Shown in pieces: positions 3,046-8,555 of a DNA stretch of 29,177 nucleotides (its first letter is position 1; every line of letters starts with the position of its first letter). The notes under the pieces were generated by a model. That model searched no databases, had not been told where the DNA came from, and saw only the letters and a program-made list of their open reading frames with translations. This DNA is from a virus, in IMG/VR virus record IMGVR_UViG_3300020392_000769, positions 1 to 29,177 of that record, one strand, 5' to 3'. The position numbers were made by a program, and so were the translations under genes.

Positions 3046-3073
3046 TTTACTTTTACAGAGATTATGATATAAT
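3046..3073 (+). promoter_or_regulatory. Phage sigma70-like promoter P1
   Basis: TTTACT and TATAAT are separated by 16 bases with an extended -10 (TATGATATAAT), followed by ATACATATATT and AAGGAG before the ATG at 3102. The block closely matches the promoters at 4014, 6094 and 9563. An ATTATTTTCAC stretch 16 bases upstream is shared with P2. It lies in the 127-base gap after the cyclase cassette. Confidence 0.85.
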
Positions 3074-3101
3074 ATACATATATTAAGGATAAGGAGAAAG
3101 G

Positions 3102-3404
3102 ATGAAATTACAAGAATTATTAAACCCAGAAAGATACGACGCTATTTCATATGACCATAGTGGAAAAACATATGATGGATATGTCACTGAAGTAAATGAT
3201 GACCATATCGTAGCAAGAGTTTCTTTGCAATCAATGTATAGAAAAAATGTACATGATGAACCAGTATGGAATACTGTTATTTTATACAAACAAGTATTCA
3301 GAGGACTTAACGTAAAATTTTGGTTTGATGGTCAAGGATGTGATAACAGCGCAATAGGTATTTCAGGATATTGGGAGCCATTAGCTGATTTTATAGGAGC
3401 TTAA
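3102..3404 (+). CDS. Hypothetical phage protein, 100 aa
   Basis: This is the first gene behind promoter P1, with a good ribosome binding site (AAGGAG about 8 bases before ATG). The product has no motif I recognise. It starts with a charged segment, has a probable beta-rich middle (DGYVTEVNDDHIVARVSL) and a Trp/Gly-rich end; no signal peptide, membrane helix or metal motif is visible. Two bases separate its stop from the next ATG, so it is co-transcribed with the phosphatase gene. Size and promoter context are typical of early/middle accessory genes. Function unknown. Confidence 0.75.
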   Translation: MKLQELLNPERYDAISYDHSGKTYDGYVTEVNDDHIVARVSLQSMYRKNVHDEPVWNTVILYKQVFRGLNVKFWFDGQGCDNSAIGISGYWEPLADFIGA

Positions 3405-3406
3405 TT

Positions 3407-3841
3407 ATGAAAATTATATTTGATGTAGATGGAACTTTAATGGATGTCGAGCACAGAAGACACTTTGTTGAAAACAATAATGACTGGGCTTCATTTGAAG
3501 CTGAAACAGTTAATGACACTAGAAATGAGCATATATTTGAAATAGCAGAATGTATGAAAGACTGTGGTCACTCAATAGTTGTTGTATCAGCTAGAAAAGA
3601 AAGACAAAGAGCAATAACTGAAAAACAATTAGCTGCAACATGTGGTCAATTCTGGGATATGTTATTCATGAGACCAGATGATAGCTTTGAGCCAGACCAT
3701 CAGTTTAAACAAAGAGTCTTAGATGAGCTTATAAAAGCTGACTGGAAACCTGACATGGTATTTGATGACAGAAATCAAGTTGTCGATATGTGGAGAGCAA
3801 ACGGCATTCCATGCTTACAAGTTGCACCAGGAGATTTTTAA
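3407..3841 (+). CDS. Stand-alone HAD-type 3'-phosphatase, like the T4 Pnkp C-terminal domain
   Basis: The 144-residue protein starts with the HAD motif I FDVDGTL (nucleophile D6, acid/base D8). It continues with a motif II region VVVSARKER, an MRPDD segment and a motif IV-like FDDRNQVVDMWR followed by IPCLQVAPGDF. The run from the MR segment to QVAPGDF matches the 3'-phosphatase domain of T4 polynucleotide kinase/phosphatase (PseT). The N-terminal kinase domain with its P-loop is absent, so only 3'-phosphate removal from nucleic acid ends is predicted. In T4 the full enzyme helps repair cleaved host tRNA; whether this single domain does so is inference. The stop overlaps a possible ATG at 3841, which I do not treat as a gene start. 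Confidence 0.85.
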   Translation: MKIIFDVDGTLMDVEHRRHFVENNNDWASFEAETVNDTRNEHIFEIAECMKDCGHSIVVVSARKERQRAITEKQLAATCGQFWDMLFMRPDDSFEPDHQFKQRVLDELIKADWKPDMVFDDRNQVVDMWRANGIPCLQVAPGDF

Positions 3842-3844
3842 TGA

Positions 3845-3974
3845 TAGTAAGACCGGGACTAGTATATCCCTCCGGTATACCGGCCACAAGAACAGATTAC
3901 GACTGTGAGGTGGGAAGCTTACTAACTAGAGAGAGCAGGGAACTGCTGAAGAGCAATGAATCGAATGCTCTCTC
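3845..3974 (+). ncRNA. Candidate structured RNA (GC-rich, unknown family)
   Basis: This 130-base stretch between two genes is visibly GC-richer than its surroundings and folds by eye. A closing stem TAGTAAG (3845-3851) / CTTACTA (3918-3924) encloses three elements: GGGA/TCCC (3855-3858/3867-3870), CCGG-TATA-CCGG (3872-3883), and CCAC/GTGG (3884-3887/3910-3913) over ACAG/CTGT (3892-3895/3903-3906). The second half has AGCAG-GGAA-CTGCT with a GNRA-type loop (3934-3947) and GAGCA/TGCTC (3951-3955/3966-3970) under GAGA/TCTC. Alternatively a 9-bp stem GAGAGAGCA/TGCTCTCTC (3929-3937/3966-3974) forms, followed by GCCTTTT, like an attenuator or terminator. A 66-codon frame from ATG 3841 also crosses it, but that frame has unusual codons and runs through promoter P2. 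Family and function unknown. Confidence 0.45.
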
Positions 3975-4013: not shown

Positions 4014-4042
4014 TTTACATTTGCAAAAAAGTATGTTATAAT
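4014..4042 (+). promoter_or_regulatory. Phage sigma70-like promoter P2
   Basis: TTTACA, 17-base spacer, TATAAT, with extended -10 TATGTTATAAT and downstream ATACATATATT, nearly identical to P1 and P3. ATTATTTTCAC lies just upstream as at P1. It drives the run of small genes from 4077, where AAGGAG precedes the ATG. Confidence 0.88.
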
Positions 4043-4076
4043 ATACATATATTCAAAATTGATAAGGAGTTAAAAA

Positions 4077-4619
4077 ATGAATAAATTAGTAATAAATACC
4101 CAGTTCATGGAAAACTATGGAGACGCTGAGTCACCTTACATGAAGTTCAAGGGTGGTTCAACATATGTAATGTTTAATTGTGGTGACCTCACTGAAAATG
4201 AGATTGCATCAATTACAGCTCAAGTGAGACCGTACATCACTACTACTATGTTAGAAACAAATGGCGGTTCTGAGGAATATATCATTGGTAGAGCTGAAAT
4301 GATTGACCATAACCAACCTCATGCTGAGTCTTGGGAAACTACAACTCAGTTCAATATCACACCTAGTGGTCAGGTTAACTTTATGAAAGTCACTGACAAC
4401 CGTGATGAAGATGGTTGGATGAAAAAAGAAATCTTAGAAAAAACTGAGTCATGGGTTGGCGATATGTCAGACACAAAACGTGGAAACTATAAGGCTGAGT
4501 TCCTTATGGAAGATGGTGACATTGTCTTAGAAAAAGACCTAAGAGAATGGTTTGAGTTGAATAGTCCAGAGCCAGAAGTAGTACTTCCAGACTTTGACAC
4601 TTATGGAGAAATAAAATAA
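4077..4619 (+). CDS. Hypothetical phage protein, 180 aa
   Basis: This is the first gene behind promoter P2, with AAGGAG about 8 bases before ATG. The product is acidic and soluble-looking, with Trp and Glu-rich stretches in the C-terminal half (ESWVGDMSD, DLREWFELN) and no signal peptide or membrane helix. I recognise no domain. The N-terminal segment NTQFMENYGDAESPYMKFKG looks like the start of a compact alpha/beta fold, but this is only an impression. The stop shares an A with the next ATG (TAATG), so it leads a translationally coupled operon of small proteins. Function unknown. Confidence 0.75.
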   Translation: MNKLVINTQFMENYGDAESPYMKFKGGSTYVMFNCGDLTENEIASITAQVRPYITTTMLETNGGSEEYIIGRAEMIDHNQPHAESWETTTQFNITPSGQVNFMKVTDNRDEDGWMKKEILEKTESWVGDMSDTKRGNYKAEFLMEDGDIVLEKDLREWFELNSPEPEVVLPDFDTYGEIK

Positions 4620-6802: not shown

Positions 6803-6808
6803 ATTTTC

Positions 6809-6869
6809 GGTCGGGCTGCATCAATGCAACTCCTTATCACCCGCAGCGGCCTGGCCAACTTATAAGGAG
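6809..6869 (+). promoter_or_regulatory. GC-rich RNA leader with a possible pseudoknot hiding the ribosome binding site
   Basis: In the 71-base gap before the ATG at 6874, CTCCTTAT (6830-6837) is the exact complement of ATAAGGAG (6862-6869), which holds the ribosome binding site. A second helix pairs GGTC and GCTGC (6809-6812, 6815-6819) with GCAGC and GGCC (6843-6847, 6848-6851), one pair being G-U. The second helix's 3' strand lies within the loop of the first, so together they make an H-type pseudoknot. The region is much GC-richer than the genome. The design is that of an RBS-sequestering riboswitch or protein operator; no known class is recognised. Confidence 0.5.
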
Positions 6870-6873
6870 AAAT

Positions 6874-8025
6874 ATGGCAACTAAAAGAAGATTAAAAAAT
6901 GCTGATGAAGCAATGATGGGACCAAAGCCAAGCTTTGGAGTACATAATCCAATACCAGAGGATTTAAAAGAAAGAGAAAAACTTTTTAGAAATGGTTGTC
7001 ATTGGTTCTATTATTTTGAAAATAAAAAGAAAGCAGCAGAAACAGTACAAACTTATTGTAGAAGAATTCTTAAATTTGATAATAAGAAAATAGCTAATCT
7101 TAAAAAACTGCCTGATTGGAAATATAGAATGAAGACCTATAAAATTATTTCTATGATTAATAATGGTTGGGAAGGTTATCCTTTAACAGAAGACATGGTA
7201 AATGAAATGCATGACTTCTTAAAAGATTGCGAAAAAGAAGGTAAAAAAATTAAAAAGGCTGCTGATGCAAAACCTAAAGTTGTACCTATATCACCAGCTG
7301 TTAGAATGAAAAGAAAAGTTTTAGATACTATATATCATGATTTTGATACAATGGTTGTTGATAAATGGATGGAAGGTTTATTCGATAAAAAAGAAATCTT
7401 ATTTCCTACATACAGTTTATTACAATTACATAAAATAAAAGGTGCAGGTCTTAATATGTTTAGAGATTTAGTACAAGCAGAATATGATGTAGTATCTGAT
7501 GCTTATCATAAAAGATGCGACCAGGCAGTAGAAGCTTATTCACATATTACAAAAGGTAATAAAAAGAAAATGTTAGAACTTATGGATAAAATATTTGAAG
7601 ACATTGAAAGAATGAGAACCAATTCTAAGGCTACACGTACTAGAATAAAAAGACCTAAAGCTTCAGATAAACAAGTTGAAAAACTTAATTATATGACTGA
7701 AAATGTTGATGCTAAATTAATATCAATTAATCCGGTATTAATACCAGGTAAGCATAAACTTTACATATATAATTGTAAGAATAAAAAGTTGCAAGAGTAT
7801 ATAACTACAGCAACAAGTGGATTTGAAATAGGTGGTACATCAATTAAAAACTTTGATAAGGAAAGCTCTAAACAAGCTACCCTAAGAAAGCCAGAGGATA
7901 TATTACCAATGATTTTAGGTAAAACAGAAAAACAAATCGAAAAGGTTTGGAATACATTAACAACAAAAATAGATAACCCTACAGGAAGAATTAACGCTGA
8001 CTGTATTTTATTAAGAGTATTTTAG
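6874..8025 (+). CDS. Conserved T4-like marine phage protein of unknown function, 383 aa
   Basis: The 383-residue protein is Lys-rich and mostly helical. The N-terminal part has an aromatic/Cys stretch (FRNGCHWFYYFENKKKA), a long charged helical middle follows, and the C-terminal part (about 285-383) looks beta-rich, with SINPVLIPGKHKLYIYNCKN and later FDKESSKQATLRKPED. A similar C-terminal pattern is familiar to me from uncharacterised cyanophage proteins, but I know no function. Its ribosome binding site sits inside the candidate pseudoknot at 6809-6869, so translation is likely controlled. Eight bases separate it from the peroxiredoxin gene; the replication/transcription genes 33, 59 and 32 follow. 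A role in DNA metabolism is suggested only by context. Confidence 0.72.
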   Translation: MATKRRLKNADEAMMGPKPSFGVHNPIPEDLKEREKLFRNGCHWFYYFENKKKAAETVQTYCRRILKFDNKKIANLKKLPDWKYRMKTYKIISMINNGWEGYPLTEDMVNEMHDFLKDCEKEGKKIKKAADAKPKVVPISPAVRMKRKVLDTIYHDFDTMVVDKWMEGLFDKKEILFPTYSLLQLHKIKGAGLNMFRDLVQAEYDVVSDAYHKRCDQAVEAYSHITKGNKKKMLELMDKIFEDIERMRTNSKATRTRIKRPKASDKQVEKLNYMTENVDAKLISINPVLIPGKHKLYIYNCKNKKLQEYITTATSGFEIGGTSIKNFDKESSKQATLRKPEDILPMILGKTEKQIEKVWNTLTTKIDNPTGRINADCILLRVF

Positions 8026-8033
8026 GAGGATAT

Positions 8034-8555
8034 ATGTTATCAGTAGGAGATAAGTTCCCTGCATTCTCACTGCAAGGAATCGATGAAAAAAATGAATTTG
8101 TGAGAGTTGAAGTAAACGAAGGATTTACACCACATAAAAAAAGTTGGTCAGTAGTTTATTTTTATCCAAAAGACTTTACATTTATTTGTCCAACAGAAAT
8201 AGCTGGTATGGATATTTTAACAGAGCATGCTAATGTAATTGGAATAAGTGGTGACAATGAATTTTGTAAGTTAGCTTGGAAACAAGATAATTTAACTATT
8301 GGAAATATAAACCATACTTTAGCTGCTGATTGTGGATTAGGTTTATCACATAAGCTTGGTATTGTAAATGAAGAAGAAGGTGTTCCATATAGAGCAACCT
8401 TTATATTCGATAAAAATAGAACTGTACAACACGTATCAGTTAACGCATTAGATACTGGAAGAAATGCTAATGAAGTATTAAGGACTTTAAAAGCTTTACA
8501 AGCAGGTGGTCTTACAGGGTGTGAATGGAATGAAGGTGATGAGTTTGTCGGCTAA
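8034..8555 (+). CDS. Peroxiredoxin (AhpC/2-Cys type)
   Basis: The 173-residue product has the peroxiredoxin active site YPKDFTFICPTE, with peroxidatic C52, T49 and P45. R132 or a nearby Arg in PYRATFIFD completes the site. A C-terminal C163 (LTGCEWNEGDEF) sits where typical 2-Cys AhpC proteins carry the resolving Cys in a VCPAxW motif, here reduced to GCEW. The family reduces H2O2 and organic peroxides with electrons from thioredoxin or AhpF; which host donor serves it is unknown. A GGAGG site precedes the ATG. Its last 17 bases overlap the start of gp33, so antioxidant and late-transcription functions are translationally linked. It probably protects the infected cell from oxidative damage; that role is inference. 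Confidence 0.92.
   Translation: MLSVGDKFPAFSLQGIDEKNEFVRVEVNEGFTPHKKSWSVVYFYPKDFTFICPTEIAGMDILTEHANVIGISGDNEFCKLAWKQDNLTIGNINHTLAADCGLGLSHKLGIVNEEEGVPYRATFIFDKNRTVQHVSVNALDTGRNANEVLRTLKALQAGGLTGCEWNEGDEFVG

Follow-up and report, generated by a model that had tools for sequence, protein, structure and literature searches.

A conserved phage hairpin with an anti-Shine-Dalgarno loop, predicted to repress promoter-proximal genes of its own early cluster in marine T4-like phages

Just upstream of a 383-aa phage gene lies a noncoding segment that had been proposed, in the initial annotation, to form a pseudoknot masking the ribosome-binding site (RBS) of that gene. Is this segment a genuine RNA element, and does it concern the neighboring RBS or another one? 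The window, which is the whole stretch of DNA analyzed (29,177 nucleotides), is a 29-kb piece of a T4-like marine phage genome, with homologues of gp33, gp59, and gp32 downstream of the 383-aa gene. By gp32 and gene content, Melnitz and HTVC008M fall within its closest cultured group. Relatives were sampled by a protein scan of viral contigs, which yielded 80 loci, and the overall comparison covered 80+ relatives. A peroxiredoxin (AhpC-TSA) gene lies between the 383-aa gene and gp33 (8034-8555), and a peroxiredoxin gene also adjoins gp33 in HTVC008M. Positions 3-2700 hold a curlin-repeat-like protein, an IscU-like protein, and an adenylate/guanylate cyclase-like frame, in an order resembling the annotated arrangement of HTVC008M and Melnitz, as judged by eye and from the annotation of those genomes. 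Between two promoter-driven genes, a G+C-rich noncoding segment (3841-3965) has several possible helices and a terminator-like end (GAGAGAGC...GCUCUCUC-GCCUUUU); against Rfam, it gave chance-level matches only (best E value, 0.14), far below gathering.

The reported 8-bp complementarity at the locus was borne out: CTCCTTAT (6830-6837) and ATAAGGAG (6862-6869) are exact reverse complements, the latter being the RBS of the 383-aa gene that begins at 6874. A second helix had been placed at 6809-6819 with 6843-6851. This helix exists, but its register was wrong, because the minimum-energy fold pairs 6809-6819 with 6846-6856 (11 bp, with G-U) and 6825-6827 with 6843-6845, leaving the anti-Shine-Dalgarno (anti-SD) sequence in a 15-nt loop (6828-6842). 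The elements at this locus are as follows.

6809 to 6819, + strand: main stem, 5' strand GGUCGGGCUGC, from the fold and covariation.
6825 to 6827, + strand: inner 3-bp helix, 5' strand UGC, paired with 6843 to 6845, from the fold and covariation.
6828 to 6839, + strand: conserved anti-SD loop AACUCCUUAUCA, near-invariant in 47 distinct hairpins.
6843 to 6845, + strand: inner 3-bp helix, 3' strand GCA, from the fold and covariation.
6846 to 6856, + strand: main stem, 3' strand GCGGCCUGGCC, from the fold and covariation.
6862 to 6869, + strand: local SD AUAAGGAG of the 383-aa gene, an exact 8-nt complement of the loop (-10.3 kcal/mol).
6874 to 8025, + strand: 383-aa gene, phrog_11903, function not assigned; the hairpin is always directly 5' of this gene.

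The folding energy of 6806-6876 was mildly better than that of shuffled sequences (z = -2.1; 8 of 200 shuffles), and the effect was weaker over wider stretches. Unlike the energy alone, stem pairing and covariation across relatives place the hairpin far beyond chance. In the window's subfamily (14 distinct sequences), 100% of the cells of the 11-bp helix were paired, and 7 of the 11 main-stem pairs were changed on both sides, so that the compensatory changes in relatives suggested as a check were found. The main-stem covariation score was 0.544 versus 0.287 in shuffles (0 of 500 as high), and slid registers reached at most 0.144. In the inner helix, UGC/GCA swaps with CGC/GCG among relatives. 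Nearly all relatives carry a hairpin 5' of the 383-aa gene, with unrelated stems and the common loop AACUCCUUAUCA or a near variant. Across 47 distinct hairpins, the stems vary freely with compensation, the loop is nearly invariant and is an anti-SD sequence, and 24 have a U-rich tail (at least five T in the first nine bases past the stem). Judged by this pairing and covariation, the hairpin is a real, conserved phage RNA element.

In two scans by DNA pattern alone, 62 of 63 hairpins were directly upstream of phrog_11903, and the 63rd was a weak GC-rich chance fold; an element independent of the 383-aa gene was therefore rejected. A multi-copy element was also rejected, as there was a single hairpin per contig region. 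No hairpin was found in the whole genome of HTVC008M or in a 15-kb stretch of Melnitz-2. The AlphaFold model of the 383-aa protein (23 sequences) was mainly helical (pLDDT, 83; pTM, 0.41) and had no match in the PDB at an E value of <0.001, and the viral matches of the protein were uncharacterised homologues only. Rfam covariance models gave no match in the window, with chance matches only around the hairpin (E values up to 10). A riboswitch or other Rfam family was rejected because the gathering threshold was missed and the hairpins have no conserved aptamer-like core beyond the anti-SD loop; the earlier idea of a metabolite-type switch thus found no sign in its favor. Literature searches found no description of the element. 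In L032 and L039 (also L150 and L153), the hairpin and its loop fall within the beginning of a short open frame that resembles a lipoprotein signal peptide (MFK...LVALTGCA), so that the RNA element overlaps coding sequence.

Since the loop is an anti-SD sequence, both strands of the 29-kb window were scanned for complements. The best one was at 4060-4071, in the leader of a transcription unit that begins far upstream of the hairpin, and a shorter complement lies at another promoter-proximal SD.

3046 to 3073, + strand: promoter of the secondary target, TTTACT-N16-TATAAT.
3088 to 3096, + strand: secondary target GAUAAGGAG, SD of the 100-aa gene at 3102, 9 bp with the loop.
4014 to 4042, + strand: strong promoter of the target leader, TTTACA-N17-TATAAT.
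4060 to 4071, + strand: distal target UGAUAAGGAGUU, the SD of the unit's first gene, a perfect 12-nt complement of the loop (-17.2 kcal/mol).
4077 to 4619, + strand: first gene of the unit, 180 aa, no assigned function, the predicted target.

The 180-aa gene had no PHROG match and no relative among phage records. In the window, 2.8 kb separate its SD from the hairpin downstream; across relatives, the distance is about 2-4 kb. In the window and four contigs, with both strands considered, the loop has its best non-self complement in a same-strand promoter-proximal SD 2.6-3.6 kb upstream; the match length is 12 nt in the window, 14 nt in G002 (in 100 kb), 13 nt in G006 and G010, and 15 nt in G011, and in G003 it was tied best. 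The distal SD was not the best complement in G001, whose loop is altered, or in G012, and the G014 sequence is incomplete. Promoters lie 15-25 nt 5' of the target sites. In L119, L120, and L135, the 180-aa family is internal and lacks the motif, whereas the 90-aa family, which is promoter-first there, carries it. The leader motif thus follows promoter position, not gene family. In seven contigs (G002, G003, G004, G006, G010, G011, and the window), 24 AAGGAG-type SDs fell within 4 kb 5' of the hairpin and 29 in the rest. Sites of this type are scarce in these phages, with roughly half of them in that 4-kb stretch. The enrichment of GATAAGGAG near the hairpin was only marginal (P = 0.05).

Next, we considered whether loop and leader change together. 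Their matching runs beyond the core read by 16S rRNA, and the flanks differ by clade in both partners (loop/leader CAUUA/UAAUG, CAUCAA/UUGAUG, UUAACUCC/GGAGUUAA, and CUCCUUAUUUU/AAAAUAAGGAG). Matches by clade were 14 nt in G002/L118, 15 nt in L127, 13-14 nt in L126, and 13 nt in L122; in L138, the loop CUCCUUUUCAUCAA matches the leader UUGAUGAAAAAGGAG with one bulged A. The pairing of each loop with its own upstream region exceeded re-assigned pairings (permutation P = 1.8e-4, 15 representatives), as it did in an energy-based version (P = 1.6e-4 with 18 representatives and 2.4e-3 with 13 after removal of near-duplicates), all of these values ignoring the shared ancestry of clades. The first test is the cleaner one because the energy version used leaders chosen for being the best matches. 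For the loops of L126, L237, L131, and L218, another clade's leader pairs better, and the own match is weak in L128, L131, L218, and L219. Across clades, the flank changes of loop and leader therefore appear partly matched. The hairpin-less L223-L225 and L230-L231 still carry part of the motif, UUGAUAAGGAAAC (UGAUAAGGA), in the leader of the 90-aa gene; the motif is thus not strictly hairpin-dependent, and strict co-loss of hairpin and target motif was rejected. L232 has no hairpin either, and its homologous leader reads AAUUAAGGAGUGA, without the motif.

From the observed hairpin, its constant loop, its complementarity to a promoter-proximal SD, and the partial co-variation, we infer that loop and SD pair in vivo and that the pairing represses translation. 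We consider it probable that this 3'-end anti-SD hairpin represses the promoter-proximal gene or genes of its own early cluster, either in cis or as a released RNA. The hairpin would close a group of small, early-type genes, and it also resembles their transcription terminator in many relatives. The loop AACUCCUUAUCA would base-pair with the SD at 4060-4071 (12 bp) and secondarily with that at 3088-3096 (9 bp), which would block 30S binding at the leading gene and limit its translation once the transcript end, or a stable terminator-derived fragment, exists. Because the loop is the exact complement of this upstream RBS, the hairpin probably lowers translation at the head of the message. The predicted pairing energies were -17.2 kcal/mol for the loop with the distal SD, -10.3 kcal/mol with the local SD, and about -8.8 kcal/mol for pairing with the 16S tail (calculated with assumed 16S tails); with the distal pairing stronger than the 16S pairing, blocked initiation would be a natural consequence. 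Against this stands the ribosome-filled 2.8-kb polycistron between loop and target, which has further promoters inside. More tentatively, the hairpin may be an off-timer of this marine T4-like lineage, by which the completed transcript would switch off translation of the leading gene, and which would be kept by co-evolution of loop and leader.

The same loop could instead belong to a small trans-acting RNA, released as a terminator hairpin, whose general anti-SD loop would repress many phage or host messages with UAAGGAG-type SDs. The loop does fit the consensus of strong SDs, several cluster leaders and often also the 383-aa SD match it over 8-13 nt, and many hairpins have terminator-like tails. 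However, strong UAAGGAG-type SDs are few elsewhere in the phage contigs, and the clade-specific flank matches indicate particular leaders, which makes such broad action unlikely.

A local cis switch, in which the loop pairs with the 383-aa RBS as an H-type pseudoknot and shuts the gene on transcripts from upstream, appears slightly less likely again. The exact 8-bp complement in the window, similar local matches of 7-8 nt in the L045/L056/L068/L072 group and L016, and the constant position of the hairpin immediately 5' of the gene speak for it. However, L020-L023, L025-L027, L033, and L078 have no complementary local SD although the hairpin abuts the gene there, so that the relatives do not share masking of the 383-aa start as a function, and the local pseudoknot was rejected as a conserved feature. 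Many relatives have a TTTACA-N17-TATAAT promoter between the hairpin and the 383-aa gene, driving that gene; the hairpin there is thus the 3' end of the preceding unit, and the main 383-aa mRNA would be without it. In L035, L037, L041, L054, and L057, the promoter spacer after the hairpin has TGATAAGGA, a 9-nt complement of the loop. The 8-bp local pairing is also weaker than the distal pairing, and with only 5 nt (6857-6861) to bridge a stem of 11-14 bp, a pseudoknot is doubtful. Of the translational switch originally proposed, a structured, conserved anti-SD RNA that probably acts on translation is retained, and masking of the 383-aa RBS as its main job is not; the hairpin most likely concerns chiefly an RBS other than that of the 383-aa gene. 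In the window, the tail (AACUUAUAA) has no U-run, and a generic terminator scan made no call there. Lacking that run and lying directly against the 383-aa RBS, the window hairpin, with two possible loop partners, may be a derived form. With neither a terminator tail nor an intervening promoter, its loop may in addition pair with the 383-aa RBS (8 bp) when transcripts read through.

Least probable is an intrinsic terminator and/or protein-binding hairpin (e.g., for a phage translational repressor) with incidental SD complementarity, which would suit the U-rich tails of 24 of 47 hairpins and, as a loop-binding protein would likewise select a constant loop on unrelated stems, the invariant loop, but leaves unexplained both the same-genome match of clade-specific loop and leader flanks and the perfect same-strand complements of 12-15 nt near a promoter.

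To our knowledge, few cases of 5'-3' pairing inside bacterial messages are known, and repression of a leading gene by the 3'-end hairpin, the reading that we favor, can be compared with several systems. In the icaR mRNA of Staphylococcus aureus, a 3' C/U-rich anti-SD motif complements the SD in its own 5' UTR, with a predicted block of initiation; RNase III cleavage and repression were shown, and within-transcript versus separate-RNA pairing was also discussed as uncertain (PMC3868564). The phage hairpin is similarly a 3' element with a 12-15-nt complement to a promoter-proximal SD, presumably on one shared transcript. Whereas icaR concerns a single gene whose 3' UTR is long, the phage anti-SD forms the loop of a compact, terminator-type hairpin that ends a multi-gene cluster and exists in 47 distinct, covarying versions, and its repression is predicted from sequence. 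In phages P1 and P7, the loops of the c4 antisense RNA complement the ribosome-binding region of a phage message from the same region (PMC12197685). The loop of the phage hairpin also complements the RBS region of a phage mRNA encoded nearby; c4, however, is upstream of its target, and the hairpin lies 2-3.6 kb downstream, at the 3' end. The c4 RNA is processed from the leader of its target's own transcript, and homology to it found no support in Rfam, where the phage hairpin had no match. The 5'-3' fold-back of hok mRNA has been cited as an icaR analogue (PMC3868564). As proposed for the phage hairpin, the 3' end of that message acts on 5' translation signals. The hok message belongs to a toxin-antitoxin system, folds metastably, and is processed at its 3' end, which closes these signals; no toxin-antitoxin arrangement was recognised at the phage locus. 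Small RNAs of the Cuckoo/CcsR type in alphaproteobacteria are hairpins with CCUCCUCCC anti-SD loops, encoded by cellular genes and with many trans targets. The phage hairpin also exposes an anti-SD loop but differs in loop sequence and has no Rfam match.

Few regulatory elements have been recognised in the closest isolates: for Melnitz, 46 promoters and 6 terminators were predicted (PMC9004378). The phage hairpin lies outside every family of the RNA library used. Its many natural stem, loop, and leader variants would permit direct compensatory-mutation tests. If the proposed repression is true, the hairpin would provide cheap, protein-free timing of early genes in streamlined marine phages.
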